A stretch of DNA of 61,864 bases, taken from assembly GCA_013002885.1 (NCBI GenBank), contig JABDLS010000095.1, positions 1 through 61,864 of the forward strand, in the 5' to 3' direction. A program made the position numbers and the translations under genes. Source of the DNA: Gemmatimonadota bacterium. Its GTDB lineage: Bacteria > Gemmatimonadota > Gemmatimonadetes > Longimicrobiales > Gaopeijiaceae. The notes under the pieces were generated by a model, which was given only the letters and a program-made list of their open reading frames with translations, made no database searches and was not told the DNA's origin. Positions within the stretch are counted from its first letter, which is position 1; the number at the start of each line of letters is the position of its first letter. This document shows, piece after piece, positions 14,123 through 37,364 of the stretch.

Positions 14123-14152
14123 CCGAGAGACGACACCTACCTCATCTCTCGG
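14123..14152 (-). terminator. Hairpin at the 3' end of the TAXI gene
   Basis: CCGAGAGA at 14123-14130 pairs exactly with TCTCTCGG at 14145-14152 across a 14-base loop. On the minus strand the stem spans the stop codon of the TAXI gene (14142-14144) and is followed by an A/T-rich stretch (AAACAAATGTTTTATCC). It could partly terminate or stabilise the transporter message before the DUF5916 gene. The tract is not a pure U run, so it is a weak terminator at best. Confidence 0.35.
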
Positions 14153-15080: not shown

Positions 15081-15109
15081 CTGCTTCTTCCTGTGACCTT
15101 CCGTGGGGA

Positions 15110-20379: not shown

Positions 20380-22344
20380 ATGCCCATCACCGGACCGCGC
20401 ATCCTCGGCAAGCTCCTCGTGGAGAACGAAGGCGTATGCCCTGAAGCACTCGCTGCGGCGTTGGGCGAGGCTCGCCGCGGTCGGGAGCGAATCGGTGAGA
20501 CCCTGGTTCGCCTCGGAGCAGCGACGCCAGCGGCCGTGGCTCGGTCTCTCGGGCTTCAGCTCGGGCTCGAAGTCGCCACCCCGCCGCTAGACCCTGATCC
20601 CGACGCTCTGTCTGCCATCAGTCCGGATCTTCTTCGGGCCCACCACCTCGTACCGTTGGCCATCAGGGCGAGGAGCATTCGCATCGCCATGAGCGACCCG
20701 CTGCGGCTGACCGCCGTCGATGACGTCCAGTTCCAGACGGGGCGTCGGGTGGAGCCGATGGTCACCACTCCCGAGGCAGTAGCAGAGGCGCTGGAGCGAC
20801 TCCTCGGACCCGGCGCCGGAGAGGGGAAGGAACGGGCGGCGACCTCTGGCGGTCGAGATCCGGGCGAGGGCACCGAGTCAGGCACCGACTCTGCAACGCA
20901 CCCGGGCCGCGCTTCGGACTGGGAGGGTGGAGCTCGGCTGGACGACGGGACGGCAGAGCGAAGGGCCGCGAGAAGCGTGGTGGCCAGCGGCTCTCCAACG
21001 GACTTCGCCGCCCTCGTCGAGGCACTCCCCGATGCGCTCCGTCAGACGTCCGCCCAACAGGGCCGGGAGGAGGTGGACACGGAGCTTGAAGCAGCCACCC
21101 GGCGGGCGCCGGTGGTGCGCCTTGTCGATCGCATCCTGAGGAGCGCCATCGAAGAGGGCGCCAGCGACATCCACGTGGAGGAGACAGGAGCCGACGTACG
21201 TGTCCGCTTTCGCATCGACGGGCGCCTCCAGAAGACGCTGGACCTACCGGCGGGTGCGCGGCGGGCGGTGCTCTCCCGCATCAAAGTGGTCGCGGGCATG
21301 GACATCTCGGTCCGGCGACGGGCACAGGACGGCCGCGCGGCGCTTCGCCATCAGGGGCGTCGATTGACGCTGAGAGTGAGCACCCTTCCGGTGAACGGCG
21401 GCGAGAAGGCCGTGGTTCGGATCCTCGACCCCGACTCCGCGCCCCGCGACCTGGACGGTCTGGGCATGGCAGCGTCGGATCTCGCCCAGCTCCGAGCCCT
21501 CCTCACCCGCGGCGAGGGTGTCCTCCTCTCTGCCGGCCCGACTGGAAGCGGAAAGAGCACGACCCTCTTCGCGGCTCTTTCAGAGATGGACCGGGCCAGT
21601 CGTAACGTCGTCACCGTCGAGGACCCGGTGGAATACCGGATGCCCGGCGCCAGCCAGGTGCAGGTCGAGCGCAGGGCGGGGCTCGGCTTTGCCGAAGCGC
21701 TACGGGCCATCCTCCGTCAGGACCCCGACGTAGTCATGGTCGGCGAGATTCGCGACCGGGAGACCGCCGAGATCGCCATGGCGGCCGCCGTCACCGGCCA
21801 CCTGGTCCTCTCCACCATTCATACCACCGACGCGCCCGGCGCCATGACGCGACTCCTGCACATGGGGGTGCCGCCCTTCCTCGTGGCCGGAGGTCTGGCC
21901 GGGATCGTCGCCCAACGGTTGGTCCGACGCAGCTGCACGGTGTGCCGAGGCCGCGGGTGCGACCTGTGCCGCGACGGGCTGAGCGGAAGAACCGGGATCT
22001 ACCAGGTTCTCACCGTCTCCGACGCCATGCGGGACGAGATCTCCGGTGGCGGCTCCTCGGCCCGCCTGCGACGCCTCGCCATGGAGAGTGGGATGTCCAC
22101 CTTGGCGTCCGACGCCCGTCGGGCCGTGGCCGCTGGCCTCACGACACTACATGAGGTTGGCAGATACCTGGACGCCGCCGCTCGGGCCGGGGTGCCGTGT
22201 CCATCGTGCTCCTACGCGGTGCCCTTCGGCGCGGCCGCTTGCCCTCGATGTGGTCATCGGCGGGGACGGAACTGCAGCTGTGGCCAGCGGCTGGAGAGAG
22301 GATGGCGCTTCTGTCCGGCGTGTGTCCGACCCGCGACTACGTGA
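20380..22344 (+). CDS. GspE/PilB-type secretion ATPase with extra C-terminal zinc ribbons
   Basis: A 654-residue traffic ATPase that would drive a type II secretion or type IV pilus machine. An N-terminal MshEN-like domain (about 1-150) and a linker rich in Gly/Glu precede the ATPase core. Motifs are Walker A GPTGSGKST (about 386), Asp box VEDPVEYR, Walker B DPDVVMVGEIRDRE (about 447), His box HLVLSTIHTTDA, and the usual tetracysteine CTVCRGRGCDLC (about 519). Beyond the normal end sits a double zinc ribbon: CPSC, CPRCG, CSCG, CPAC (about 606-650), not usual for the family. No pilus or secretion partner gene is nearby. Confidence 0.92.
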   Translation: MPITGPRILGKLLVENEGVCPEALAAALGEARRGRERIGETLVRLGAATPAAVARSLGLQLGLEVATPPLDPDPDALSAISPDLLRAHHLVPLAIRARSIRIAMSDPLRLTAVDDVQFQTGRRVEPMVTTPEAVAEALERLLGPGAGEGKERAATSGGRDPGEGTESGTDSATHPGRASDWEGGARLDDGTAERRAARSVVASGSPTDFAALVEALPDALRQTSAQQGREEVDTELEAATRRAPVVRLVDRILRSAIEEGASDIHVEETGADVRVRFRIDGRLQKTLDLPAGARRAVLSRIKVVAGMDISVRRRAQDGRAALRHQGRRLTLRVSTLPVNGGEKAVVRILDPDSAPRDLDGLGMAASDLAQLRALLTRGEGVLLSAGPTGSGKSTTLFAALSEMDRASRNVVTVEDPVEYRMPGASQVQVERRAGLGFAEALRAILRQDPDVVMVGEIRDRETAEIAMAAAVTGHLVLSTIHTTDAPGAMTRLLHMGVPPFLVAGGLAGIVAQRLVRRSCTVCRGRGCDLCRDGLSGRTGIYQVLTVSDAMRDEISGGGSSARLRRLAMESGMSTLASDARRAVAAGLTTLHEVGRYLDAAARAGVPCPSCSYAVPFGAAACPRCGHRRGRNCSCGQRLERGWRFCPACVRPATT

Positions 22345-23440
22345 ACGTCGCCACCCTCGTCGTCAGCGCTTCCACCCGCTCCACATCCACGTCGACCCCG
22401 ATGCCTGGCCCGACCGGTACAGCCATCTTCCCTTCGGAGACCGTGAACTCCGGCGACACGATGTCACGCTCCCAATAGCGAGTGCTCGCCGAGATGTCAC
22501 CGGGGAGCGTGAAACCGGGGAGCGACGCGAGCGCCACGTTATGGGCGCGGCCCACACCCGACTCGAGCATCCCACCGCACCACACAGCAAGCCCCTCGGC
22601 GCGCATCATGTCGTGGATCCGGCGGCTCTCGCCCAACCCACCCACCCGACCGGGCTTGATGTTGATGATCCGGCAGCTCCCCAACTCCAGGGCCAGCTCG
22701 GTGTCGGCTGCCGATTTGATGGATTCGTCGAGACAGACGGCCGTGTCGATGCGTTCCTGCAGCCGCGCGTGGTGAAGGAAGTCGTCGTAGCGCAGGGGCT
22801 GCTCGATCATCATGAGATCGAGGGCGTCGAACTCCTTGAGCCGCTCGACGTCATCGAGGGTGTACGCCGAGTTGGCGTCGGCCATGAAATCCACGTCGGG
22901 AAAGCGCTCGCGGAGGCCAGCGAGCATCTCGAGGTCCCGCCCGGGCTTGATCTTGATCTTCACCCTGGCGTAGCCGTCCTCCAGGAAGCCTGCCACCTGC
23001 TCGTGGAGGGCGTCATCGTCGGGTTTGAGCCCTACGCTCACCCCGACGGGGACGGCGGCGCGTGTGCCGCCGAGCTTGGCCGAGAGCGACACGCCGTCTG
23101 CCCGAGCGGCCATGTCCCACACCCCCATCTCCACCGCCGCCTTCGCCATCCCGTGTCCTCGGATCCAAGAGACCGGCTCCAGCACGTCGTCCGGCCCGGA
23201 AAAGTCCCGACCCACGACATGGGGCAAGATGAAGTCCGTGAGCACGTGCCATGCCGTATCGGTGGTCTCGTAGGCGTAGGAAGGATCGGCTGAGGCGACG
23301 CACTCGCTCCACCCCTCGAGACCGTCGCCTTCCAGCGTCAGGAGGACGACCCGGCGGTCCTGGCTGCCGCCGCTGGAGATCTCGAAGAACTCCTTGAGGC
23401 GGAGTGGGATCTCCCGAAGGGTGGCGCGTTCGATCTTCAT
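22337..23440 (-). CDS. menC: OSBS/N-succinylamino-acid racemase, enolase superfamily
   Basis: A 367-residue muconate-lactonizing-type enolase family enzyme. The catalytic KxK is in VKIKIKPG (K161, K163). Metal ligands are D188 (ADANSAY), E213 (MIEQPL) and D238 (CLDES). The second catalytic lysine K262 is in INIKPGRVGG. The Arg at 265 matches, within one residue of numbering, the second-shell Arg (R266) tied to racemase specificity in the Amycolatopsis enzyme. I favour N-succinylamino acid racemase because the neighbours are the matching GNAT and M20 genes and no other menaquinone gene is here. It is last in a ten-gene operon and overlaps the previous gene by 4 bases. Its end overlaps the convergent ATPase gene by 8 bases. 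Confidence 0.88.
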   Translation of the reverse strand: MKIERATLREIPLRLKEFFEISSGGSQDRRVVLLTLEGDGLEGWSECVASADPSYAYETTDTAWHVLTDFILPHVVGRDFSGPDDVLEPVSWIRGHGMAKAAVEMGVWDMAARADGVSLSAKLGGTRAAVPVGVSVGLKPDDDALHEQVAGFLEDGYARVKIKIKPGRDLEMLAGLRERFPDVDFMADANSAYTLDDVERLKEFDALDLMMIEQPLRYDDFLHHARLQERIDTAVCLDESIKSAADTELALELGSCRIINIKPGRVGGLGESRRIHDMMRAEGLAVWCGGMLESGVGRAHNVALASLPGFTLPGDISASTRYWERDIVSPEFTVSEGKMAVPVGPGIGVDVDVERVEALTTRVATFT

Positions 23441-24666
23441 GTGACCTGTTCGGCGAAGGTCGTGGGCTCGATGAGAGAGAACACCTCGTCGACCTGCTCC
23501 CAGCCCACGCGAAGCAGAAAGGTGTTGTTCCTTCCGTACGACTTGCTCCCGAGAATGTAGAAGTCGGGCTCGGGATTCTTCAGGGTCTCGGCCCCATGGC
23601 TCTCCTGGGTCAGGCAGTCACCGGCGGCTGAGCCGAGGAGGGCAGCGGCGAGCTTCATGGGTCCGGAGGTTGCGTAGCACTCGTGCACCTGAAGCTGACG
23701 ATAGAGCCGGGCATCCCCAACAGAGCCGGTGAGTGAGACGATCCAGTCGACGGTCACGGTCTCCGCCTTGCCATCGCCGCTCGCGAGGGTCACGACGATA
23801 CCGTCGTCCGTGGCATCCAGCCTCTCCACCGTACGACCCAGGCGAACGTCGAAAGGAGATCCGTCCGAAGTCAGATCCAGGGCGGTTCGGACCAGACCCG
23901 CCCGGGCCGGAAGCGGATCGTCCTCAACCGCGCCGAAGGTGGGCTCCGGGTTTCGAACGGCCCAGGTGACCTCGGTGTCGGGAGCCTTCTCGACGACCCG
24001 ACGAAGGTCGCGTGCGGCGGTCTGGGCGGAGTGCCCGCCGCCAACGAGGAGAATGCGCCGCCCTCTCCACCCAGACGCGTCGTTCTCCAGATTCGCCGCG
24101 TCGAACGTCGGGATCTGTCGGATGATCCACTCCTCGGCATGCCCCTCGCCAGGGGCTCGAATACCCCCGGACCCCAGAGCGTTGGGATGGTGGTAGGTGC
24201 CCGTGCAGTCGAGAACCACGTCGGCATGCTCCACCCGCTCGCCGTCGCCGTCCCGGACCATCATGCGGAAGGGCTGGCGAGACCGCCCACCCGTTCCGAT
24301 CTCGTCGCTCTTGAGGAGCCTCTCCCGACCGACCTCGACGACCTCCGTCCCCAGGCGAAGTCGTGCCTCTATGGCGGGCTGTCGCGCCAGGGGCTCGAAG
24401 ACCGACTCTACCAGCTCATGTCCGGAGGGACACCCGTCACCGTTCGGAGGCTCCGAGCCACCCTCCGCCAGAAGGCGCCGTACGCGGGAAGAGACGTTCA
24501 TGGACCAGGGAGTGAAGAGCTGGACGTGCCCCCAGGCGCGGACGTTGCCGGCGACGCTCTCCGCCATCTCGTAGACCGTGAAGTCGAGGCCCGCCTCGGC
24601 CGCTGCGGCTGCCGCCTCCAGACCGATGGGACCGGCTCCCAGTATCGCGATGACGGGACCGCTCAT
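23437..24666 (-). CDS. FAD-dependent oxidoreductase, two-Rossmann (FMO/thioredoxin-reductase-like)
   Basis: A 409-residue flavoprotein. The FAD site is at the N-terminus (ILGAGPIGLEAAAAAAEAG) and a second dinucleotide (NADPH) site is at about 200 (ILLVGGGHSAQTAARDL). The middle has VVLDCTGTYHHPN, the usual ATG-type hinge of two-domain flavin monooxygenases. The WGHVQLFTPW segment follows the first site. No redox CxxC pair is visible, so thioredoxin reductase activity is unlikely; a monooxygenase or amino-acid/acyl-amino-acid oxidation is possible. It is embedded between the GNAT and racemase genes with 4-base overlaps on both sides. The substrate is unknown. Confidence 0.85.
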   Translation of the reverse strand: MSGPVIAILGAGPIGLEAAAAAAEAGLDFTVYEMAESVAGNVRAWGHVQLFTPWSMNVSSRVRRLLAEGGSEPPNGDGCPSGHELVESVFEPLARQPAIEARLRLGTEVVEVGRERLLKSDEIGTGGRSRQPFRMMVRDGDGERVEHADVVLDCTGTYHHPNALGSGGIRAPGEGHAEEWIIRQIPTFDAANLENDASGWRGRRILLVGGGHSAQTAARDLRRVVEKAPDTEVTWAVRNPEPTFGAVEDDPLPARAGLVRTALDLTSDGSPFDVRLGRTVERLDATDDGIVVTLASGDGKAETVTVDWIVSLTGSVGDARLYRQLQVHECYATSGPMKLAAALLGSAAGDCLTQESHGAETLKNPEPDFYILGSKSYGRNNTFLLRVGWEQVDEVFSLIEPTTFAEQVT

Positions 24667-25508
24667 GATCGTGCTTCTGCTCCCCGGGTCAGTAGGTAGG
24701 CCGAAACGCGTCCGCCTCGCTGGAAGTCGGTGACCTCGAAGCCCTCGTCCAGGTAGCGGACGAACACGGCCCGTGTGGCGTCACGCCAGGCGACGGCCAG
24801 GGACATGTCATCGGCCATGAGCTTCCCTATGTCCGATGGAATCGCCACGCGGATCGCGTCGTTCCCCAGGAGATCCAGGTCCGGGAGGCCCGGCTCGGGG
24901 TGTCGCAGAGTCGTGTCGCCGCGCGCGGCGAGCGCGGAGGGAGCATCGCCCACTGGGGACGCCTCGTCCCGGTCCAGCCGGCGTCGAACACGTTCCGAGT
25001 CCATGAGCCACACCGGCACGAAGCGATCGGTGCCGATGCCCCGATGAAGCGGGGAGTCGCTCTCCCCGTACATGTTCGTCCGATATTCCCGAATCAAGAC
25101 GCCCAGCTTCGCCAGATTGAGGTAGGCGTTTCTCGACTGCAGCGGATCGAACGTCCAGTACATGGTGGTGATGCCACGGCTCAGGAGTTCGTCTCGCTGA
25201 TACATCTTCAGCCGGCGACCCAAGCCCCCATCCCTCACCTCTGGACGGACGGCGAGCATATCGGACCAGTGGACCGTCTCGCCGTCCCGAACGCCGGTGA
25301 GACCGAAGACGAAGCCGACGAGCGCTCCGGTCTCGTCGTAGGCTCCCGCAGCGACGCCCCCGAGGATCTGACTGACCTTGAGGATCGCCGGCGAGACCCG
25401 CTCGGAGAAACCAGCACCCCACGTCGCCTCCTGAAGATCCACGCACGCCCGGTAGTCCTCCACGGAGGAGAAGGGGCGGATGGTGACGGACTGTGACACC
25501 CGAGTCAT
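24663..25508 (-). CDS. COG3375 GNAT-superfamily N-acyltransferase (candidate D-amino-acid succinyltransferase)
   Basis: A 281-residue GNAT protein. The acyl-CoA binding strand-loop is LAVRPEVRDGGLGRRLK (about 90-105). The COG3375 signature follows: MYWTFDPLQSRNAYLNLAKLG, then REYRTNMYGE and a GIGTDRFVP box. In Geobacillus kaustophilus a GNAT encoded next to the racemase and an M20 hydrolase was shown to be a succinyl-CoA:D-amino acid N-succinyltransferase. The same three families co-occur here, so I infer that role. The C-terminal third (about 190-281) is a second, partly related region ending in an AYLLT strand. Overlaps of 4 bases exist on both sides. Confidence 0.85.
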   Translation of the reverse strand: MTRVSQSVTIRPFSSVEDYRACVDLQEATWGAGFSERVSPAILKVSQILGGVAAGAYDETGALVGFVFGLTGVRDGETVHWSDMLAVRPEVRDGGLGRRLKMYQRDELLSRGITTMYWTFDPLQSRNAYLNLAKLGVLIREYRTNMYGESDSPLHRGIGTDRFVPVWLMDSERVRRRLDRDEASPVGDAPSALAARGDTTLRHPEPGLPDLDLLGNDAIRVAIPSDIGKLMADDMSLAVAWRDATRAVFVRYLDEGFEVTDFQRGGRVSAYLLTRGAEARS

Positions 25509-26521
25509 CCCCGAGCGCCGACGGCGGCCTCTAGCATCTGCCGCAGGCGTACGTGCGTATCGCCGTTGAGCAAGTCCATGCCGGGCAAGCCGGTCAGTTC
25601 GTGCACCAGGGCGATGCCCGCCTTCGTGTTGGCGGTGGGGCCCGTGACGAGATCGATGGGCCGTTTCCAGGCTTCCTCGATTCCCACCACGGCATACGGG
25701 TCGGAGGCCGCGACGATGGTGAACGCCACCTGATCACCGATCATGTCGACGAGAGTTCCCCCGTTGTACGGCTCGAGGGGAGACGCGCCAGCCTCGATTA
25801 CCGCGACCGTCGCATCCGTACTCGCCATCTGCCGAAGCAGTCCCGAAATCGCAGCGCGATACTCGTCCTCCGGGACGACCGTCGTGGGCAGCCCTGCGTC
25901 GACGAAGTCGAAGGTGTGATCGGCGCCGGCATCTTGGAAGCTGAGGGTGTCGCGCCAGCGACCCGCCCCCGTCAGTTTGGCTCCCAAGACCCGGTGCCCG
26001 AGCTTCTTGAGCTGCCGAATCGCCATCCGCCCGGACAGCGTCTTTCCCGAAGACATGGAGGTGCCTGCCAGGAGCACGACGGGAAGGCCGAAGGAGGTCT
26101 CCGGCGGCGACGGCACGAAGTCCGTCATGACGACCTTTCGACCCCCTCGCACCACATGCCCTCGGTAGACGAGGGTCACGGGGGCAGAGGAGAACCTCGA
26201 CAAGGACGTCAGGGCCCCGAAGCAACCTGCACCGGTCATCAAGCTCATCCGATTGTCAGGGCCCATGTCCTCGAAGGAACCGGTCGCTTCCAGGGTGGCG
26301 AATCGACGGGCGAAGGCGCCCACGAGGAGGTCTCCGGCGAGCGGTCTGGTCGATCGACCGTTGACCAACTCGAAGGTCTCCATCGGGGACGACCTCGGCA
26401 GGACCTCGGCGACGACGTAGTCGCCCGACGCCCAATCCTCCCGGTCCAATGCCTTATAAGGAAAGGGCCAAGAGGGGAGATCTGCGATCCTTGTGAGAGA
26501 TCCGAACAGGACGGCACTCAC
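25505..26521 (-). CDS. DUF1611-like P-loop protein, candidate D-amino-acid N-acyltransferase
   Basis: A 338-residue protein with GTG start overlapping the M20 stop (GTGA). The P-loop GTSMSSGKT is at about 153-161, inside a C-terminal domain (about 145-330) that follows the DUF1611 plan. It has an AKLTGAG turn, DFVDAGLPTTV, and IEAGASPLEPYNG in the place of the EGQGS segment of DUF1611. The N-terminal part differs from standard DUF1611 proteins. In Pseudoalteromonas a DUF1611 protein (DgcN) N-acetylates D-glutamate and hands it to an enolase-superfamily epimerase, the same pairing of families seen here. Assignment to DUF1611 is by pattern and moderately sure. Confidence 0.68.
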   Translation of the reverse strand: MSAVLFGSLTRIADLPSWPFPYKALDREDWASGDYVVAEVLPRSSPMETFELVNGRSTRPLAGDLLVGAFARRFATLEATGSFEDMGPDNRMSLMTGAGCFGALTSLSRFSSAPVTLVYRGHVVRGGRKVVMTDFVPSPPETSFGLPVVLLAGTSMSSGKTLSGRMAIRQLKKLGHRVLGAKLTGAGRWRDTLSFQDAGADHTFDFVDAGLPTTVVPEDEYRAAISGLLRQMASTDATVAVIEAGASPLEPYNGGTLVDMIGDQVAFTIVAASDPYAVVGIEEAWKRPIDLVTGPTANTKAGIALVHELTGLPGMDLLNGDTHVRLRQMLEAAVGARG

Positions 26522-27771
26522 GGATCCCTTCTCCGCTGATCGGTACGCTCACCCGTGACCACACCCTCACCCATGGGAGGAGCCAGAAGAAGGCGGGCGA
26601 GGAAGGCGCACCGGTCTACGGACGGATCGATCACGATGTGCTCGTGATCCGCGTGGGCGCCGTCGCCGATGCAGCCGAGTCCATCGAGGGTAGCGGTGTA
26701 GAGGCTGGTGGTATTCCCGTCAGAGCCGCCTCCGGCCATCGTGTCTTCCAGGCTCAACCCCAACTCGCCGCCGAGAGCCTGGGCCGTGCGCCACAACTGC
26801 TGATTCCGAGGGGTCCGCTCCAGGGGCGCGACCCTGATTCCGCCCTCGATGCTCAGCTCGATCCCGTCTCTCGTCGGCTTGATCGCCTGGACCCGGGCCT
26901 CCAACTCCTCTCCCGCTTGGACGCTCGCGACCCTCACGTCGACGCTGGCGCTGGCTTCGGCAGCCACCACGTTCGGCCTGGTCCCGCCGTCGATCCGGCC
27001 CACGTTCACCGTCGTACCCGCCTCGGGATCGTTCAGCCGGTTCAATTCCTGGATCACGTTGGAAAGCTCGAGGATGGCACTCACGCCGGCGTCCGGGTCC
27101 AAGCCGGCGTGTGCTGCTCTGCCCCTTACCGTGACCTCGAAGCGGCCAACTCCCTTCCTGGCCGTCTTGATGAGCCCGCGAGGCCCGAGGGAGGGCTCCA
27201 GGATCAGGGCACGCTGAGCCCTCCGAGCCAAACGGCGCACGTGGCGCTTCGAATCGGGGCTCCCGACCTCCTCGTCGGAGTTCACGAAGACCACCGGGAT
27301 CACGTCAGGATCTCGATCGAGGGCTCTGAGCGCCTCGAGAGCGAAAACGATCTGGGTCAGGCCGCCCTTCATGTCGAGGGTCCCCGGACCATGAAGACGG
27401 CCTTCCTCCACCCGCACCGGCATGGTCTCCAGCGTCTGAAGCGGCCATACCGTATCGCTGTGACCAACGAGGAGTTGACGAGGCGCCGAAGCGCGTCGCC
27501 GCTTGGGGAAGGCGAGAAGATGGTTCCCGCTTTTCTTGCCGGTCACGACACGGACGTCGAACCCGAGATCCTCGAAGGCCGGCCCGAGAATGGCGTGGAC
27601 CGCGGATTGGGTATCGGGGTGATCCGTCGGAGACTCGACGGTGCAAAGGCGAGCGAGAAAGTCGACGAACTCGTCCCGCCGAGAGCGAACGTGCTCGAGG
27701 AGCTCGTGGGCCTCCTCGGTTCTGGGCTCCGGAGACGACACGTCAGTGCCTGGCGAGGCGTCCGGCTTCAT
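26518..27771 (-). CDS. M20 family metallopeptidase / N-acyl-L-amino-acid deacylase
   Basis: A 417-residue M20 enzyme of the glutamate-carboxypeptidase (CPG2)-like branch. Zinc ligands and catalytic residues are visible: H104 and D106 in VGHSDTVWP, D133 in GTLDMKGG, the catalytic Glu at 167-168 in NSDEEVGS, Glu 192 in ILEPSLG, and a C-terminal His in GAHADHEHI. The lid/dimer domain holds GRAAHAGLDPDAGVSA. In the Geobacillus N-succinyl pathway an M20 enzyme removes the succinyl group from the L-product, so I infer that step here. The start is the ATG at 27771 (ATGA overlap with the flavin reductase); a frame open upstream to 28086 lies inside that gene. Confidence 0.88.
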   Translation of the reverse strand: MKPDASPGTDVSSPEPRTEEAHELLEHVRSRRDEFVDFLARLCTVESPTDHPDTQSAVHAILGPAFEDLGFDVRVVTGKKSGNHLLAFPKRRRASAPRQLLVGHSDTVWPLQTLETMPVRVEEGRLHGPGTLDMKGGLTQIVFALEALRALDRDPDVIPVVFVNSDEEVGSPDSKRHVRRLARRAQRALILEPSLGPRGLIKTARKGVGRFEVTVRGRAAHAGLDPDAGVSAILELSNVIQELNRLNDPEAGTTVNVGRIDGGTRPNVVAAEASASVDVRVASVQAGEELEARVQAIKPTRDGIELSIEGGIRVAPLERTPRNQQLWRTAQALGGELGLSLEDTMAGGGSDGNTTSLYTATLDGLGCIGDGAHADHEHIVIDPSVDRCAFLARLLLAPPMGEGVVTGERTDQRRRDP

Positions 27772-28388
27772 CGCGACGACCCTTCGTGGAACGGGAAAGC
27801 CATGGTCTGATTTACTTCCGAATACCGACCCGGCGCGATGTAGGCGAGGAGCGGTGCCTCCATCAAAAGCTCCTGGTCGTCGCGATCCGACCTCCGGATG
27901 GCGTCCTCCTCGACGAGGGCCTCGACGATGCGACCGGCGATGAGGCTGTTCCGACCGAATCCGTCCACGATCTTTTCCGTCCGACACTCGAAGTGCAGGT
28001 AGGCATCCTTCAGGAGGACCCCCTCCACGACCGTCGCCGGCCGGGTCGCCAGCAGAGCCAGCGAGGGTTTCTCGTCCTCGCCGCATCGCGGGGCGGCGGC
28101 CAGGCTAGCCGAGAGCACCTGGCTCGGTCGTGGAAAGCTCACCGTAAACGCGCCCTCACGTCGGGCGTTCACATAGGTCCCGTGGGCGGGCGTGCACACG
28201 AACCCGAAGAAGTTGTCCCACCCGAGTGGCGTCACCATGTGCTTGGGAGCGAGATCGAAGCTTCCGTCCAGCTCCTTCGTGCCCACCACCACGAGGGGGC
28301 TCACCTGAAAGAAGCGATCCCATACACGGTGGTCGACACCGAGGCGAATCAGCTCTGCCGCCGCCCCGTCCTCTCTTTGATCATTCAC
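27768..28388 (-). CDS. Flavin reductase family protein (FMN-binding split barrel)
   Basis: A 206-residue protein of the flavin reductase-like fold. The FMN-binding segment reads PLVVVGTKELDGSFDLAPKHMVTPLGWDNFFGFVC, followed by TYVNARREGAFTVSFPRP and a conserved hydrophobic VEGVLLKDAYLHFECR strand. Such proteins supply reduced FMN to monooxygenases or act as pyridoxamine-oxidase-like flavoproteins. It begins with GTG overlapping the glcF stop (GTGA) and ends overlapping the M20 gene by 4 bases. It may serve a flavin-dependent step of this operon, although the FAD oxidoreductase downstream carries its own NADPH site. Confidence 0.85.
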   Translation of the reverse strand: MNDQREDGAAAELIRLGVDHRVWDRFFQVSPLVVVGTKELDGSFDLAPKHMVTPLGWDNFFGFVCTPAHGTYVNARREGAFTVSFPRPSQVLSASLAAAPRCGEDEKPSLALLATRPATVVEGVLLKDAYLHFECRTEKIVDGFGRNSLIAGRIVEALVEEDAIRRSDRDDQELLMEAPLLAYIAPGRYSEVNQTMAFPFHEGSSR

Positions 28389-29737
28389 TTGTAGATACCC
28401 GCTCTCTTGTAGCTCTCGTCGAGCAATTCAACTGGATGGATGATCGGCTGAGAGGCGCCGTCGAGTCTGAGTCCTGCTCCAATCTGCATCATGCAGCCGG
28501 GATTGGCAGAGCACGCCACGGTGGCGCCGGCTCGCGTGACCGCCGCGACCTTGTCCCGTCCTATGCTACCCCCGAGCTCGGGATGCGTCAGTCCATAGAT
28601 GCCGGCCCCGCCACAACACTCCTCCGCTCCCTCCACGACCCGCACCTCCACGCCTGGCACCGCCTCGAGGACCTGGATGGGAGGTCGGGCGACACCCTGG
28701 GCATGCAGAAGATGACAGGGGTGATCGTACGCCACCGCACACTTGACCTCGGCCCCCGGCAGGGGACCTGCTTCAGCGAGTAGCTCGGTGACGTCGCGGA
28801 CCCGCTCAGAGAAGGCTGCGGCAGCAGGGGCACGCGAGGCGTCGGTTTCGAAGAGGACGTGGTAGTCCTTCATCGCCGCCCCGCAACCTGCGGCGTTGGA
28901 GACCACGAAGTCCACGCCAGCCGACTCGAAGGCATCCATGTTGGAGCGCGCGAGGTCCCGGGCTCCCTGCAGGCTGCCGGCATGGGCATGGAGGGCGCCA
29001 CAGCAGCCCTGGCCCCGGACCTCCACGACACGATATCCGTTGGCCTCCAGTGTGCGGGCCGTCGCCTTGTTGACCCGGTCGTACAGACCTTGCTGCACAC
29101 AGCCCAGGAGGATGCCCACCGTGCCACGGTGACCGGGATGGTCGGAATCTTCGCCGGGGCCCGCAGCGGAATCGCTCGCGACCGGCGGTATCCAACTCTT
29201 CGTCGCCGCCAACATGGCCATGGCCATTCGGCCACTCCCCATTAGGCCGCGCGACGGGAGCAGCCGAACGGCCAGATCTGCCAGCCCGGTCGCCCGCAGA
29301 ACCCGACCCCCGAAGAAGAAGGGCCCCCTGAGGGCAGGTGACGCCATGATCGTCAGGAGCAGACGGCTGAGGATGCCTGGCTTCCGAGCCTCGACGGCAG
29401 TCTCGCGAGCGGCCTCCAAAAGCACACCGTATTCGACGCCGGAAGGACACACGGGCTCGCAGGCCCGGCACCCCAAGCACCGGTCGATATGTGTCTGGAA
29501 GGCGTCGGACGCGGGATCCAGGCGCCCCTCCACCACGGCACCCATGAGGTGGAGACGGCCTCGGGGAGAATCGGCCTCGTCGCCCAGCCGATTGTAGGTA
29601 GGACAGGCGGGCAGGCAAAAGCCGCAGTGTACACACGGCAGGAGGCGGTCCTTCTGAGACTCGAGCGCCTCGGCCAACCGCAGTCGTGCGGGGGGCACCC
29701 TCACCGTGTCCGCGTCCACTCGAATGGCGTCCTTCAT
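28385..29737 (-). CDS. glcF: Glycolate oxidase iron-sulfur subunit
   Basis: A 450-residue protein. Two [4Fe-4S] clusters are ligated by CVHCGFCLPACP (about 35-46) and CLGCRACEPVCP (about 88-99). Two C-terminal CCG domains follow, with GCCGALHAH and ECCGGAGIYG. It passes electrons from the GlcD/GlcE flavoproteins to the quinone pool during oxidation of glycolate or D-lactate. The ATG at 29737 overlaps the aldehyde dehydrogenase stop (ATGA); a longer frame to 30070 lies inside that gene. Unusually, the aldehyde dehydrogenase separates it from glcE. Confidence 0.93.
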   Translation of the reverse strand: MKDAIRVDADTVRVPPARLRLAEALESQKDRLLPCVHCGFCLPACPTYNRLGDEADSPRGRLHLMGAVVEGRLDPASDAFQTHIDRCLGCRACEPVCPSGVEYGVLLEAARETAVEARKPGILSRLLLTIMASPALRGPFFFGGRVLRATGLADLAVRLLPSRGLMGSGRMAMAMLAATKSWIPPVASDSAAGPGEDSDHPGHRGTVGILLGCVQQGLYDRVNKATARTLEANGYRVVEVRGQGCCGALHAHAGSLQGARDLARSNMDAFESAGVDFVVSNAAGCGAAMKDYHVLFETDASRAPAAAAFSERVRDVTELLAEAGPLPGAEVKCAVAYDHPCHLLHAQGVARPPIQVLEAVPGVEVRVVEGAEECCGGAGIYGLTHPELGGSIGRDKVAAVTRAGATVACSANPGCMMQIGAGLRLDGASQPIIHPVELLDESYKRAGIYK

Positions 29738-31269
29738 CGCCCCAGCAGCCTCCGCGCAGCGACAACGAGGCCGCTCAGCCCTCCTCGAGCCCTGAGCGCC
29801 AGGACCGACCGGGTGAGGCGCTCGACACGCTCGTCGTACGGAAACCACCAGGGCTCTCTGCTCAGTCCGGCTCTGTCGGCGAGGAAGGCGCGGGGCCGCG
29901 TCATCTCGGTAAGGCCCTCCAGGCCCCTCCGGCTTCCGAAGCCACTGTCGCCCACACCACCCAGGGGAAGCCCACCGATCCCGGCGTGGGCAAGGCTTTC
30001 GTTGACGCAGACGCCGCCGGTACGAAGCCGCCGTCCCACGTCGACACCGCGCCGTCGGTTCTCGGTCCACACGCTGGCGAAGAGGCCGTAGGCGGAGGCG
30101 CTCGCCCAGCGGATCGCTTCCTCTTCGTCCCGGACGGCCGTCACCGCCAGAACAGGTCCGAAGGTCTCCTCGTGAAAGATCTCCATGGTCTCGTCGACGC
30201 GGGTGACGATCGTCGGAGCGAGGGCGCGATCTCCTTCCCCAGGCGGGCTATCCGCCTCAGGCACTCCTCCCGCAACCACCTCGGCACCCTTTGCAACAGC
30301 ATCCCGCAGATGGGCGGAGACCCTCTCGAATTGGACCGCGCTGATCATCGGCCCGACATCGACGTCGTCAGCCACACCATACCGCAACGCGGAGGCCTCC
30401 TCCGCGAGCCGTCTCGTGAACTCGGCGGCCACCGCATCGACGACGTACACCCGTTCGATGGAGATGCAGGTCTGTCCGGCATTGAAGAAGCCTCCGAAGG
30501 CGATTCCCTTCACCGCCCGTGCAAGATCCGCGTCCTCGAGGACGATGGCGACGTCCTTGCCCCCCAGTTCGAGGCTTACCGGCGTGAGCGTCTCGGCTGC
30601 CACGGCCATGACCTTGCGCCCTACCGCCGTGCTCCCCGTGAAAGAGACCTTGTCGACATCGCTCCGCACGAGTGCCTCACCCGTGGAGCCGTCACCTGTC
30701 ACGACCTGGACGAGACCTTGCGGCAGACCCGCCCGTGCGCACAGGTCAGGTAGCAGAGACGCCGTGACCGGAGTCAGCTCCGAAGGCTTCACCACCACCC
30801 CGTTCCCGCCGGCGAGGGCTGCCGCAACGGCATCCATCCCGATGATCAGCGGATAGTTCCACGGCGTGATGACGCCCACCACACCCAGTGGGACCCGCTC
30901 CACCCACGCCTTCTTCCAGAACATCCAACCGGTTCCCACGCGGCGAGGGCTCAGGTGCCGCGGAGCGTAGCGGTGGTAGTACCGAAGCAGCTCGACAGAC
31001 ACCGCGACCTCCGCCAGGGCCTCGGCTCTGGGCTTGCCCGTCTCCGAGATGATGGCGTCGGCGACTTCGTCCGCCTCGACCTCGAGCACCCGCGCCAGCC
31101 GGATCAGTGCCTCCACACGGCGGAGGACCGAACGGGACGCCCACACGGCCGCCGCCGCTCGCGCAGTCGCAACCGCAGTCGCGACCTCGGAAGATCCACT
31201 GAGCGGAAAGGTCGCAACCACCCGACCGTCCCGCGGGCTGCGGACTTCGATGGTCCGCCCCTCGCGCAT
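29734..31269 (-). CDS. Aldehyde dehydrogenase
   Basis: About 511 residues of the NAD(P)-dependent ALDH family. Motifs are VGVITPWNYPLI, the SFTGSTAVGRKV cofactor loop, the general base Glu in LELGGKD and the nucleophile Cys in FFNAGQTCISIERVYV. The ATG at 31269 shares one base with the stop of glcE (TGATG) and is preferred to the GTG at 31287. Placed between glcE and glcF, it suggests an aldehyde (for instance glycolaldehyde or lactaldehyde) oxidised to the 2-hydroxy acid used by GlcDEF. It could instead oxidise a semialdehyde formed by the amino-acid branch. A C-terminal tail of about 40 residues extends past the usual family end. Confidence 0.93.
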   Translation of the reverse strand: MREGRTIEVRSPRDGRVVATFPLSGSSEVATAVATARAAAAVWASRSVLRRVEALIRLARVLEVEADEVADAIISETGKPRAEALAEVAVSVELLRYYHRYAPRHLSPRRVGTGWMFWKKAWVERVPLGVVGVITPWNYPLIIGMDAVAAALAGGNGVVVKPSELTPVTASLLPDLCARAGLPQGLVQVVTGDGSTGEALVRSDVDKVSFTGSTAVGRKVMAVAAETLTPVSLELGGKDVAIVLEDADLARAVKGIAFGGFFNAGQTCISIERVYVVDAVAAEFTRRLAEEASALRYGVADDVDVGPMISAVQFERVSAHLRDAVAKGAEVVAGGVPEADSPPGEGDRALAPTIVTRVDETMEIFHEETFGPVLAVTAVRDEEEAIRWASASAYGLFASVWTENRRRGVDVGRRLRTGGVCVNESLAHAGIGGLPLGGVGDSGFGSRRGLEGLTEMTRPRAFLADRAGLSREPWWFPYDERVERLTRSVLALRARGGLSGLVVAARRLLGR

Positions 31270-32495
31270 CAGAACCGGGCTGGCCACAACACGCCGCCTG
31301 GATCGAAGGCCGAGCGAAGTCCTTCGACGAGCGCCTGCTCGCCAGGCCTCGGCCGAGTGCTCAGTTCGGCTGCGCGGCCGTCCATGGACGGCGCAAAGAG
31401 CCGGAGTGCTCCGCCGACGTCCTCGATCCGGCTGCGCACCGAGTCAATGACCTCTCCCGTGGGGACCGCCGAGGCCGCGCGTACGCGTCCGCCGTAGCTA
31501 TCGACGCTCAGCGCAGTCGGAGTCAGGGCGTCGAGGGCATCCAGTACGGCGCCCAGGCGGGAAGGGCGAGCGGACGCCGCGAGCAACACGTCGCCAAGGC
31601 TGGCGTGGTCCCGGACGCCGGCGTGGTCGACACCGGAGTCGACGCGGAAGGTGAGGCCCACATGCTCCTCCAAACGCCGCTGGTCGGCGGCCACGGTAGC
31701 CTCGGCACCGTGCAACCGGACGACGAGCGCCGGGCGACCGCCCGCGGCAGCCAGGGCGTCGACGATGACCGACGACGCCGGAAGAACGGGAGCTGTGCCC
31801 ACTTCGAGAGCGTGCTTCAGCAGCTCCCCCACCGTCGCTCCTTCGACATAGAGGGTTCGGTCCACCGGCGGCACCGGAAACGCCCTCAAGACCACCGAAG
31901 TGATGATGGCCAGCGAGCCCCGACTCCCCACAACCGCCTTGAGTAGGTCGAAGCCGGCGACGTTCTTCACGACCCTCCCACCCAGACGCAGAGTACGCCC
32001 ATCGCCGGTCACGACCGTGAGACCAAGGACGTGGTTCCGGAGCTCGCCATACCCCATATGGAGTGGCCCCGAAAGGCCGTTCGCGACAAGGCCACCCAAG
32101 GAACGCTGGTCGATGCGAGGTGGGTCGAAAGGGGCCCACTGGGCATTTTCCGCCAATGCGGCGGCCACCGTTCCGAACGGCGTCCCGGCGCCAGCGGACA
32201 ACGTCAGGTCGGCGGCTTCGTAGGTCTCGAGCCCGGCGAGGCCGTCGGTTCGCAGCACGACGAAACGACCGTCTCCCCGCACTGGATGGGCACGCCGTCC
32301 GCTACCGATCGGAAGAACGCCCACGCCCTCCCGTGTCGCCCACTCCATGAGAGCAGCCACGTCCTCCGTGGCCCCGGGCCGCACCACCGCATCTGGACGA
32401 CGGCTGCCGGGAAGATCGGCGTCCGGCATGTCCTTCGGTTCCTCGGCCATGGCCGAGGCCGGCAAGATCGTCGCCAACGACTCCATCACGGTCAC
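31269..32495 (-). CDS. glcE: FAD-binding subunit of glycolate oxidase
   Basis: A 408-residue flavoprotein with a PCMH-type FAD domain. The N-terminal region has GVGVLPIGSGRRAHPV, then LTLSAGAGTPFGTVAAAL, RSLGGLVANGLSGP and GRVVKNVAGFDLLKAVVGSRG, which are typical of GlcE. It pairs with GlcD and GlcF to oxidise glycolate or D-2-hydroxy acids. Translation starts at the GTG overlapping the glcD stop (GTGA at 32492-32495), so the two subunits are made together. Confidence 0.9.
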   Translation of the reverse strand: MTVMESLATILPASAMAEEPKDMPDADLPGSRRPDAVVRPGATEDVAALMEWATREGVGVLPIGSGRRAHPVRGDGRFVVLRTDGLAGLETYEAADLTLSAGAGTPFGTVAAALAENAQWAPFDPPRIDQRSLGGLVANGLSGPLHMGYGELRNHVLGLTVVTGDGRTLRLGGRVVKNVAGFDLLKAVVGSRGSLAIITSVVLRAFPVPPVDRTLYVEGATVGELLKHALEVGTAPVLPASSVIVDALAAAGGRPALVVRLHGAEATVAADQRRLEEHVGLTFRVDSGVDHAGVRDHASLGDVLLAASARPSRLGAVLDALDALTPTALSVDSYGGRVRAASAVPTGEVIDSVRSRIEDVGGALRLFAPSMDGRAAELSTRPRPGEQALVEGLRSAFDPGGVLWPARF

Positions 32496-33922
32496 GAGGC
32501 ACCCACCCCTGCAACGGCATCGATCTCTTCATCGGGGATGACCTTGCCGGGATTGAAGAGACCTTCCGCGTCGAAGACCCGGCGGACACGGCGAAGCATG
32601 TCGAGCTCGACCTCGTTGTGTACCAACGTCATGTAGCCGCGCTTGTCCACCCCGACCCCGTGCTCACCCGTGATGGTCCCACCCACGTCGACGCACAGCG
32701 ACATGATCTCGTGGGACGCGGCTTCGACCCGCGCCATCTGGTCCGGGTCGGCTCTATCGAAGAGGAGGTTGGGGTGGAGGTTGCCGTCTCCGGCATGGAA
32801 GACGTTGGCGATTTGCAGATCGTATCGGACCCCGATCTCGGTGATCTTCGCCAGCACCTCGGGAAGACGGGTTCGGGGTACCGTAGCATCCTGCACAAGC
32901 AGGTCCGGTGCGATGCGGCCCATGGCGCCGAAGGCCTTCTTGCGACCCTTCCACAGCCCCAGCCGCTCCTCCTCGGACCGCGCTCGGCGGACCTCTCTGG
33001 CGCCTGCGGCGAGACAGCATGCCTCGGCGCGATCGGCGTCGGCGTCGAGGCCTTCCTCGGTGCCGTCGAACTCGATGACCAGAGCGGCGCCGGCGTCCGT
33101 CGGGTATCCGGCGGCGAATACGCTCGCCTCCACCGCGCGGATCGTGGCCTTGTCGACGATCTCCACCGCTGCAGGCATGAGACCCGACGCGATGATGGAC
33201 GTCACCGCATGGCCGGCCGCCTCCATCGTGTCGAAGATGCCCAGGAGGGTGCGCACACCCTCGGCCAGAGGCAGCAGGCGCACTTCGATCTCGGTGGCGA
33301 TGCCGAAACACCCCTCCGAGCCCACGAAGAGCCCGACGAGGTCCAGACCGTCCGCGACTTCTCTCCCGGCGCCCCCGAGCCTGACCACCTCACCGCCGGC
33401 GAGAACTACCGTGAGCCCGGTGACGTACCTGGTGGTCACCCCGTACTTGAGGCAATGGGGACCACCCGAGTTCTCGGCCACGTTGCCCCCGAGAGTGCAG
33501 GTGCTCTGAGACGACGGATCGGGAGCGTAGTAGAGGCCGTGGGGGCGGGTCGCGTCCGTGAGGCGAGCGTTCACCACCCCGGGCTGGACGCGGGCGATGC
33601 GGTCCCGGGCATCGATCTCCAGCACCCGGTTCATCCGTGCCGTTCCGACGACGACACCGTCCGGAGTCGGTAGCGCCCCGCCCGAAAGTCCCGTGCCCGC
33701 ACCTCGTGGGACGATCTCGATCTCGGCCGCGTGGAGCACGCGCACCACCTCGGCCACCTCTTCGGTCGAGGCCGGCAGAACCACGGCCCTCGGCCGCACC
33801 CGATACGCTGACAGGCCATCGGACTCATAGACGAGGAGCCGGTTGGGATCCGTGATGACGTGATCGTCCCCGACGGTGGATCGAAGCTGGCGCACGAGGG
33901 CGGCAGGCAGCGGCTCAGTCAT
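32492..33922 (-). CDS. glcD: FAD-linked glycolate/D-lactate oxidase subunit
   Basis: A 476-residue flavoprotein, first gene of the ten-gene operon. The FAD-binding part shows PRGAGTGLSGGALP and STCTLGGNVAENSGGPHCLKYG. The substrate domain has NVFHAGDGNLHPN with the metal His, and the C-terminal TGEHGVGVDKRGYM. It oxidises glycolate or a D-2-hydroxy acid to the 2-oxo acid. A promoter-like pair lies directly upstream with only 5 bases between the -10 box and the ATG, predicting a leaderless message. No ribosome binding site is seen. Confidence 0.95.
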   Translation of the reverse strand: MTEPLPAALVRQLRSTVGDDHVITDPNRLLVYESDGLSAYRVRPRAVVLPASTEEVAEVVRVLHAAEIEIVPRGAGTGLSGGALPTPDGVVVGTARMNRVLEIDARDRIARVQPGVVNARLTDATRPHGLYYAPDPSSQSTCTLGGNVAENSGGPHCLKYGVTTRYVTGLTVVLAGGEVVRLGGAGREVADGLDLVGLFVGSEGCFGIATEIEVRLLPLAEGVRTLLGIFDTMEAAGHAVTSIIASGLMPAAVEIVDKATIRAVEASVFAAGYPTDAGAALVIEFDGTEEGLDADADRAEACCLAAGAREVRRARSEEERLGLWKGRKKAFGAMGRIAPDLLVQDATVPRTRLPEVLAKITEIGVRYDLQIANVFHAGDGNLHPNLLFDRADPDQMARVEAASHEIMSLCVDVGGTITGEHGVGVDKRGYMTLVHNEVELDMLRRVRRVFDAEGLFNPGKVIPDEEIDAVAGVGAS

Positions 33923-33927
33923 GGGAG

Positions 33928-33957
33928 AGGATACCCCGGCCCAGAGCGGGGGTGCAA
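33928..33957 (-). promoter_or_regulatory. Candidate promoter of the ten-gene operon, leaderless
   Basis: On the minus strand TTGCAC (33957-33952) and TATCCT (33933-33928) are separated by 18 bases. The -10 box ends 5 bases before the glcD ATG at 33922, so transcription would start at or next to the start codon. No purine-rich ribosome site lies between. The match is partial (3/6 and 4/6), so it is a prediction. The spacer is very GC-rich. Confidence 0.45.
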
Positions 33958-34021
33958 CACGGAGCGCGGGCCGCCTCGTCCCCTCGCCAGGCGTTACCCA
34001 ACGGTCGGCATTGCTGGCCGC

Positions 34022-34768
34022 TCAGCCGTGGGCATCGAGATGGTCGAGCACCGCCTCCAGCGACTTCCGAGCCGCCCCGTGCATGGACGCCGGCACCGTG
34101 CCGCCGTAAACGATGTCCACCAATCGCTCGGAGTCAGCTTCCGGATGCGAGGCTCTGGCCCGTCGAACCTGGTCGATGCGCTCCAGGCGGTGATGACGAA
34201 AGCGCGCGACGGCCTCCCTCGGGTCCTCCAGAGGCGGCCCGTGGGCCGGGTAAAGGACGTCGACATCCAACGAATCGAGTCGCGCCAGGGAGTCGAGGTA
34301 GTCCTGGACACAGCCCGGGTACTCCGCCACCCACGTCGTGTCACCCCGTCCGAGGAGGTGGTCTCCGACGAAGGCGGCCCGCCGCTCCAGCCAGTGGAAA
34401 GCGAGGTGCTCACGGGTGTGCCCTGGCGTGTGCAGGGCGACGAGCACACCCGCGTCGGTCGCCACGGAGTCGCCCTCGTCGAGTGGGCTCGTGAGGCCCT
34501 CCAGGCCCTTCGGGCCGAAGACCTCGGCATCGAGCTCTGCCGCGAGACGCGGCGCTGCCGCCACGTGGTCGTCGTGTCCGTGAGTGAGAAGCAAGGTCAC
34601 CGAGTCGGCGCGTGCGCCCAAGGACGCCAAAGCCCGGACGTGGGAATCCACGTCCGGGCCAGGGTCGATGATGGCGATACGGCGGCGCCCCACCAGGTAA
34701 CTCCTCGTACCCTCCAGGGTGAACGGGCCGGGATTGTCCGCCGTGACGAACGCCGGGTGGTCTGTCAG
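34022..34768 (-). CDS. MBL-fold hydrolase, LACTB2/glyoxalase II-like
   Basis: About 248 residues if it starts at CTG 34768, which overlaps the TGA of the GAF gene (CTGA). A GTG at 34693 is the nearest usual start, but it would cut off VTADNPGPFTLEGTRSYLVG, the first two strands normal for this family. The metal motif LTHGHDDHVAA has both His, Asp and His; more ligands are in HTPGHT, VGDHLLGRGD and PAHGPPL. The C-terminal helical part (about 165-248, with RFRHHRLERI) fits LACTB2-type enzymes, which cleave RNA or thioesters. The substrate is unknown. Confidence 0.85.
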   Translation of the reverse strand: MTDHPAFVTADNPGPFTLEGTRSYLVGRRRIAIIDPGPDVDSHVRALASLGARADSVTLLLTHGHDDHVAAAPRLAAELDAEVFGPKGLEGLTSPLDEGDSVATDAGVLVALHTPGHTREHLAFHWLERRAAFVGDHLLGRGDTTWVAEYPGCVQDYLDSLARLDSLDVDVLYPAHGPPLEDPREAVARFRHHRLERIDQVRRARASHPEADSERLVDIVYGGTVPASMHGAARKSLEAVLDHLDAHG

Positions 34769-35241
34769 GAAGCGTCCCGGCGCTCCGCAGCCAACTGTTC
34801 GGCGAGCTTGTCTGCCACGCCGATGAGAGCGATCTGGTCGTCCTCGGTGAAGGCGGCCTTCTCGTCCGAGTCGATGTCGATCTGACCGAAGATGTCATCC
34901 CCCGCACGGATGAGGATCACCAACTCGGACTGCGTTTCCGGTGAGCACGCGAGGTAGTTCTCCTCCTCGCTCACGTCCGGGATGTTGAGGTTGGTCCGCT
35001 CGGCGACCGCGCGACCGCAGACGCCCTCCCCCACGGGGATCTTGGCATGGTCGGTAGCTTCGCCCACGTAGTTGTGAAGCCACAGCTCCTGGTCCGCCTC
35101 GTTGAGGAGGTAGACCCCCACCCAGTCGAAGCGACTCTCAGTGGAGACTTCCCGAACAGCTCTGCGTAGGAGCGCGTCGGAGAGGTGACCCTCGTCACGC
35201 ATCTCTTGCAGATCTTTGATGAGACTTCCTGCGTCCAGCAT
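34765..35241 (-). CDS. GAF-domain protein, free-methionine-(R)-sulfoxide-reductase-like
   Basis: A 158-residue single GAF domain. The sequence IPVGEGVCGRAVAERT and the later YLACSPETQSELVILI match the two cysteine-bearing loops of fRMsr, which reduces free methionine-R-sulfoxide. The final FGQIDIDSDEKAAFTEDDQ is the usual last strand of these enzymes. A third cysteine of the classic enzyme is not evident, so the resolving arrangement may differ. It is probably translated together with the MBL hydrolase downstream (4-base overlap). A plain ligand-binding GAF role is the alternative. Confidence 0.8.
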   Translation of the reverse strand: MLDAGSLIKDLQEMRDEGHLSDALLRRAVREVSTESRFDWVGVYLLNEADQELWLHNYVGEATDHAKIPVGEGVCGRAVAERTNLNIPDVSEEENYLACSPETQSELVILIRAGDDIFGQIDIDSDEKAAFTEDDQIALIGVADKLAEQLAAERRDAS

Positions 35242-35308
35242 CGGTTACGTCCAAATCGAAGTGTTCCACCCGCAACGGCGCGGTCCCGTGCGAGCTCACC
35301 ACAAGAGA

Positions 35309-35325
35309 GGCCGACGATGTCGGCC
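35309..35325. repeat. GC-rich hairpin in the GAF-M42 gap
   Basis: GGCCGAC at 35309-35315 and GTCGGCC at 35319-35325 form a perfect 7-bp stem with a 3-base loop, and flanking GAG/CTC bases extend it imperfectly. It lies in the 215-base gap after the M42 peptidase gene and before the GAF gene, both on the minus strand. No T-run follows on that strand, so it is not a classical terminator. It could act as a processing or pausing site. Nothing else is evident in the gap. Confidence 0.35.
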
Positions 35326-35456
35326 CTCGCACCACCCGGGTCGGCGTCCTCCGAACGAGGAATCCGCGGTCCCGTCCCGAGCGGGCACGAAGGGTAGAAT
35401 TACCGCCAGATCGCGTCAACGTGCCAACGCCACGACGTGGCTGGACACCGCAGGGG

Positions 35457-36530: not shown

Positions 36531-36555
36531 GGAGAGAAGCTACTCGAGGAACGGG

Positions 36556-37164: not shown

Positions 37165-37364
37165 GGAAATCCTTACCCGGGGTCGGGTCCCTGGGGTTCA
37201 CAGAGCCTCGAATCCCCGAGCGGGATGCCCGGTCTGGCCGTCAACACGGTTGAGGTAGGCGCCACCTACCGTGAAGTTGTCAGGACCGAGAGCGCCCCCC
37301 GGGTGTAGCTTCGGACAAAGGGTGATTACCCGCTCATCACATATATCGCACGACAGGCCAGCTC

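Follow-up and report, generated by a model that had tools for sequence, protein, structure and literature searches.

A pathway of Geobacillus kaustophilus comprises a GNAT succinyltransferase, an N-succinylamino acid racemase (NSAR) and an M20 hydrolase of the carboxypeptidase G2 type, and these three families make up its D-to-L amino acid cassette. The excerpted text of PMC7431475 describes the NSAR/L-succinylase pair from Geobacillus in use, and that of PMC4215206 states that some enolase-superfamily enzymes catalyze both the NSAR reaction and the o-succinylbenzoate synthase (OSBS) reaction. The locus described here lies in a 61,864-nucleotide stretch of DNA from a Gemmatimonadota bacterium of the family Gaopeijiaceae (contig JABDLS010000095.1 of assembly GCA_013002885.1, our contig C65; the genome is 4.0 Mb and 89.5% complete), and the whole of this stretch is called the window below. 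On the minus strand, at 22337-33922, the window carries ten open frames in the order D-E-A-F-r-M-U-G-o-R, in which genes for 2-hydroxyacid oxidation are followed by relatives of the three Geobacillus families. This is a real conserved operon, with the known D-to-L cassette in a new setting. The genes, in order of transcription, are as follows.

32492-33922, minus strand: D, a GlcD-like FAD-linked 2-hydroxyacid dehydrogenase subunit (Pfam FAD_binding_4 and FAD-oxidase_C; TIGR00387 496 bits, cut-off 568)
31269-32495, minus strand: E, a GlcE-like FAD subunit (PRK11282 155 bits, cut-off 284)
29734-31269, minus strand: A, an aldehyde dehydrogenase, optional, in 5/56 loci (Pfam Aldedh, E 7e-142)
28385-29737, minus strand: F, a GlcF-like iron-sulphur subunit (Pfam CCG and Fer4; PRK11274 279 bits, cut-off 333)
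27768-28388, minus strand: r, flavin-reductase-like, optional, in 9/56 loci (Pfam Flavin_Reduct 54.7 bits, cut-off 27)
26518-27771, minus strand: M, an M20 hydrolase of the carboxypeptidase G2 type (Pfam M20; best match in the Protein Data Bank (PDB) carboxypeptidase G2, E 2.8e-29)
25505-26521, minus strand: U, a P-loop protein, remotely DUF1611-like, optional (PF07755 below cut-off; model confidence (pLDDT) 92.5)
24663-25508, minus strand: G, a GNAT acyltransferase, labelled COG3375 in an earlier note on this DNA (Pfam Acetyltransf_1 21.5 bits, cut-off 20.7)
23437-24666, minus strand: o, an FAD/NAD(P) oxidoreductase resembling thioredoxin reductase, FNR and monooxygenases, optional, in 22/56 loci (Pfam Pyr_redox_2)
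22337-23440, minus strand: R, an N-succinylamino acid racemase/o-succinylbenzoate synthase (TIGR01928 menC 354 bits, cut-off 201)

None of the ten frames contains an internal stop, and the Pfam families found were FAD_binding_4/FAD-oxidase_C, Aldedh, CCG/Fer4, Flavin_Reduct, M20, GNAT, Pyr_redox and MR_MLE. Neighboring genes overlap by exactly 4 bases at eight of the nine junctions and by 1 base at E/A, the last value hanging on the start of A: an in-frame GTG at 31287, the gene caller's choice, gives 19 bases. Overlaps of 4 bases occurred at 8/9 operon junctions versus 1/36 of the remaining same-strand junctions of the window. In 40 loci of the family the figures were 68/148 for junctions between operon genes and 16/205 for the remainder, the counts coming from a gene caller of our own making, which overlooked genes in some loci (L042, L049, L062 and L068 among them). 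Chance was rejected on these counts as the source of the overlaps. The earlier note had described ten chained genes, with eight 4-base overlaps and one 1-base overlap, and had placed two flavoenzymes in the unit; the reading frames and junction counts bear out the former, and the Flavin_Reduct (r) and Pyr_redox (o) matches the latter. The ten genes would be read from a single transcript. Scans of 21800-37400 gave one promoter-like site against 0.9 in shuffled sequence and three terminator-like sites against 5.9, neither in excess of chance, and an Rfam scan of the window gave zero matches.

We favor, at about even confidence, the explanation that the operon has two arms and a bifunctional R, and that it is old in one Gemmatimonadota family. 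In the first arm, A and D-E-F would convert an aldehyde or a 2-hydroxy acid, of the glycolate or D-lactate type, to an oxo acid, with electrons passing via F to the quinone pool. In the second, G would acylate D-amino acids using acyl-CoA, R would racemize the N-acylated product, and the L-amino acid would then be released by M or another hydrolase. R would also be the OSBS for synthesis of menaquinone, the likely electron acceptor of D-E-F. The substrates, both activities of R and the functional reason for the linkage are inferred, and a metabolic link from hydroxyacid oxidation to amino-acid inversion is put forward as a hypothesis.

Gene order was compared in a family sample of 58 genomes, 51 of which supplied the 52 R loci that were examined; this set leaves out the window's own genome and six more, one of them without R. 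Upstream order was counted in the 36 R loci with at least 9 kb upstream, the 16/52 with less than 9 kb being dropped. D-E-F lay upstream of R on the same strand in 28/36, D-E-F-M in 26/36 and D-E-F-M-G in 17/36; taken singly, M was found in 28 of these loci, G in 24 and o in 10, and each of A, r and U was found in three. The aldehyde dehydrogenase, flavin reductase, DUF1611-like and FAD genes are thus patchy across relatives. Named genomes were represented by the best 80 of 184 loci, among which the full ten-gene order recurred in two more Gemmatimonadota (L123 and L135). The order that the earlier note had proposed to look for in other Gemmatimonadota is therefore conserved across genera of one family and complete in two further genomes. 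Relatives also share the flanking order ispH, fxsA, M42 peptidase, GAF, MBL-fold, operon, T2SE, and this synteny indicates that the linkage of the operon halves is old. In the window, genes for an MBL-fold protein, a GAF protein and an M42 aminopeptidase precede the operon on its own strand at 34022-36530, syntenic with those of relatives; 99 bases separate the end of the MBL gene from the start of glcD, and the MBL gene may be part of the operon unit.

Outside the family the two halves were found apart. In other families of the phylum G and R occurred together in 35/35 loci and D-E-F in 0/35; a distinct M20 gene (29% identity to M over 78 residues) directly followed R in 23/35. Ten loci titled from other phyla, among the best 80 of 184 named loci, had G and R together in 10/10 and D-E-F in 0/10, some of the contigs being only 4-6 kb long. 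Two unrelated units, D-E-F-M and G-R, might then have been joined once in the family ancestor and kept vertically with no metabolic link. We consider this rather unlikely, and it fits much of the above: the whole block from ispH, fxsA, M42, GAF and MBL through the operon to T2SE is syntenic, so that the linkage may simply be inherited, D-E-F lies far from G-R-m in class relatives, and either half persists without the other. Further, the presence of D-E and that of G were unassociated (33/42 vs 11/14, p 1.0) in a table of 56 loci, family and named, that excludes the window and two convergent loci from an initial 58 and in which every locus has R. Two observations argue against unrelated units, namely that the exact 4-base overlaps recur in many genera (the 68/148 above), and that the halves stay side by side where a segment has been inverted, the M-G-R or G-R part being convergent to F-E-D in L114, L139 and L145.

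Two further arrangements were seen. In G040 the GNAT is in two pieces: residues 4-132 end a D-E-A-F-r-M-U unit and residues 122-275 stand beside R, about 0.9 Mb off (C1:3177546-3177932 and C1:4073695-4074177; L215, L056). The split is either a rearrangement breakpoint within the operon or an assembly fault. In L057, L059, L116, L117, L118, L120, L122 and L127-L129, F is kept with G, o and R, with no match to D, E or M; F alone in these loci needs some other partner.

R passed the menC model TIGR01928 (354 bits against 201), and its best solved relatives were the N-acylamino acid racemases of Thermus, Deinococcus and Amycolatopsis. Residues K161, K163, D188, E213, D238 and K262, which we take to be the catalytic Lys pair and the metal ligands, were present in 144/144 aligned R sequences. 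The earlier note had called R an N-succinylamino-acid-racemase-like enzyme; the NSAR relatives agree with this, yet the probable MenC role had been left out. In the family sample R was present in 57/58 genomes, G044 being the one without it, and menD scored over its cut-off in 47/58. R was the sole MR_MLE_C protein in 42/58 genomes, bar a weak match of about 430 codons taken, presumptively, as enolase, and 37 of those 42 have menD. A further MR_MLE_C protein or fragment occurred in 14/58, the window's own genome among them. Second R-like copies outside the D-E-F operon were seen in G018 (C100) and G003 (C93, L035), the latter one of the 14. No protein in the 58 genomes passed TIGR01927, the other menC model. 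Of 20 menD loci retrieved, genes were called in six and annotated in two: the G022 cluster reads isochorismate synthase, menD, menB, menA, menE-like, then tyrS, and the G005 cluster isochorismate synthase, menD, one unassigned gene, menA, menE-like, both menE-like genes being under cut-off. A menC gene was not found in either of these two loci. Given its score over the menC cut-off and, in 37/58 genomes, the presence of menD with no other MenC candidate, R is probably the OSBS (MenC) of this family, and for the window's own genome the assignment is made by way of its relatives. R was also tried as a DgcA and rejected, scoring 105.5 bits with NF042940 against a cut-off of 400.

G was detected in 48/58 family genomes and missing in 10, in nine of which R is kept; menD was over cut-off in six of these nine. 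In L060, L063, L065 and L214 G lies away from R, elsewhere in the genome, and these were counted as having G. Related GNATs adjoin 'menC' and amino-acid ABC transporter genes on plasmids of Sulfitobacter indolifex and Deinococcus radiodurans; these neighbors, together with the pairing of G and R in other phyla, fit D-to-L conversion.

Constraint on R was then compared between genomes with and without G. Six of 150 distinct R sequences were removed for less than 44% identity, leaving 144, i.e., 136 with G and eight without detected G. Identical sequences and alignments of 300 residues or fewer (including that of G056) were left out, and L258 of G058, which lacks G, was among the six. Each R was scored by how many of its sites were changed while invariant in all other G-bearing R, relatives above a similarity limit being excluded. 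The eight G-less R had 0, 2, 2, 1, 6, 1, 9 and 1 broken sites, a mean of 2.75, while the 136 R with G had a mean of 0.15-0.18 (0.16 at a 75% limit), with two or more broken sites in 2-3/136. A rank test, in which kinship was ignored, gave p of about 1e-8 to 1e-9. The control genes D (6 G-less vs 47 sequences, p 0.55) and F (6 vs 62, p 0.57) had no excess of broken sites, and M had a slight one (7 vs 69, p 0.03). Two pairs among the eight G-less genomes share a genus, and the genomes are drafts, so that a missing G is not proof of its loss. Constraint on R is looser in the genomes without detected G. Most simply read, these alignments would mean that selection maintains a second activity of R only where G is present, and R is probably also a racemase. 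R265, presumably the position of R266 in the Amycolatopsis enzyme, which we take to be linked to racemase activity, was changed only in G-less R, to L in one and A in another; with just 2/8 changed, it was rejected as a clean marker of G loss.

These results bear on the possibility that R is simply MenC, that G is no amino-acid acyltransferase, and that any racemase activity lacks a cellular role. In keeping with it, R exceeds the menC cut-off, has no competitor for the MenC role in most family genomes, and persists without G in 9/57 of the R-bearing ones. We judge it decidedly unlikely: G accompanies R in all ten of the other-phyla loci, among the best 80 of 184; amino-acid transporters stand beside G on plasmids; and R sites are kept more strictly where G is present. 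A menaquinone cluster beside G-R was also rejected, since queries with men proteins found no men gene near the family or named G-R loci, bar one weak MenH-like match in L056.

The bifunctional R of our preferred explanation leaves the place of M to be considered. In the 56 loci M tracked D-E (40/42 loci with D-E vs 2/14 without, p 1.4e-8, uncorrected for relatedness), and it was independent of G (p 0.71). Much of the association with D-E comes from eight F-G-o-R loci that probably form one clade. M is apparently not a dedicated member of a GNAT-racemase-M20 trio, because it was retained in 7/7 family loci of genomes without G (L234 included). The earlier note's comparison of GNAT, racemase and M20 with the Geobacillus D-to-L families thus holds for resemblance and for the adjacency of G and R, and is less clear for M, which is present and does not track G.

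The substrate of D-E-F is also relevant here. The best PDB relatives of D were, in order, glycolate oxidase (9qgz), LctD, and the D-lactate and D-2-hydroxyglutarate dehydrogenases. The subunit types match the glycolate-type oxidation by glcD, glcE and glcF that had been claimed, but all three proteins missed their NCBIfam glycolate oxidase cut-offs, and glycolate as the settled substrate was rejected. As the excerpted text of PMC8491902 has it, proteins with these domains have been misannotated and were shown to be active on D-lactate or D-2-hydroxyglutarate. Not far from the operon, at 14142-17053, the window also encodes a TRAP-type DctM permease and an NMT1-like (TAXI-type) binding protein, which may serve to take up organic acids.

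The operon could instead encode one linear pathway whose substrate is an N-(2-hydroxyacyl)-amino acid (e.g., a D-lactoyl- or glycoloyl-amino acid): R would adjust the amino-acid center, M would hydrolyze the amide, and D-E-F would oxidize the hydroxy acid so released. Such a pathway would account for the presence of hydroxyacid oxidation genes and N-acyl amino acid genes in one operon, for the place of M after F, and for the association of M with D-E and not with G. We regard it as highly unlikely, given that much of the M/D-E association comes from the eight loci resembling one clade, that the pathway and its substrate are conjecture, and that G could take part in it only by supplying N-acyl amino acids. 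Its extension, in which D-lactoyl-amino acids freed from peptidoglycan are the substrate and the hydroxy acid is burnt into a menaquinone pool that needs R too, so that one gene, R, would serve both substrate and electron acceptor, we likewise regard as very improbable.

Several observations weigh against the explanation that we favor, i.e., two arms with a bifunctional R. The retention of M without G is one, and M was also lost from other loci that keep G. D-E-F was located elsewhere, apart from G-R, in 5/5 class genomes examined, and the M-G-R or M-R of G004 and G028 has no D-E-F beside it. In the window's own genome, at 89.5% completeness, menD over cut-off was not found, with menB over cut-off present, and that genome holds a second MR_MLE_C protein, on C107. 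A PDB search gave no close solved relative of G. Finally, the constraint test covers eight G-less genomes, with kinship handled by a similarity filter only; one of the eight R sequences had no break at all, and R265 was kept in 6/8.

U matched PF07755 with E=0.0013 and 18.6 bits against a cut-off of 25, and four of its relatives scored 15.5-24 bits; hhalign aligned residues 144-329 with true DUF1611 at E 0.0013 and a probability of 18.7%. The U model is a confident P-loop structure. Its nearest Foldseek matches were dethiobiotin synthetase and SRP GTPases, none of the matches listed having a TM-score above 0.57, and a PDB sequence search for relatives of U gave nothing useful. True DUF1611 over cut-off was found in 35/61 genomes of the phylum and in 0/8 family genomes sampled. 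DgcN is, we take it, a member of the DUF1611 family; U as a plain DUF1611/DgcN enzyme was rejected on the PF07755 and hhalign scores, and with it the earlier note's placing of U in the DgcN family. The genes r and U were both present in 9/56 loci and both absent in 47/56, flanking M as a pair, and a short contig (L156) has r and M and no U. By their co-occurrence, r and U are probably a functional pair. The o model is of low confidence (pLDDT 77), with Foldseek matches to FNR, YpdA and ornithine N-hydroxylase, and we can place o no more closely than as a two-dinucleotide-binding flavoenzyme.

No paper on such a combined unit was found in the open-access literature, subscription journals being mostly outside the search. 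For the use of D-amino acids in a widespread and poorly cultured phylum, the operon supplies a conserved genetic setting, one tied to hydroxyacid oxidation and menaquinone synthesis. The lineages seemingly without G but with R are a natural experiment on which activity, OSBS or NSAR, selection maintains, a matter long debated, and the comparison points to directly testable R sites: S22, P53, S135, N260 and R265.

Compared with known systems, the operon has the subunit types and D-E-F order of Escherichia coli glcDEF; unlike that system, all three subunits here fall below the NCBIfam cut-offs. To judge from the excerpted texts of PMC10845958 and PMC12363236, the DgcN-DgcA D-glutamate pathway is alike in joining N-acylation to an enolase-superfamily racemase, and U is remotely DUF1611-like, but U and R fall short of the DUF1611 and DgcA cut-offs, respectively. 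R resembles the bifunctional OSBS/NSAR enzymes, so far as the excerpts of PMC4215206 describe them, in being both menC-like and racemase-like and in having no rival as MenC in most family genomes; here, however, a comparison of G-bearing and G-less genomes allows the two roles to be told apart. Closest is the Geobacillus NSAR pathway, with the same three families, R in the NSAR/OSBS subfamily, a carboxypeptidase-G2-like M, and G adjacent to R. The locus differs from that pathway in that the cassette has been inserted behind the genes of a glcDEF operon, M persists where G is absent, and as many as four additional genes (A, r, U and o) are present.

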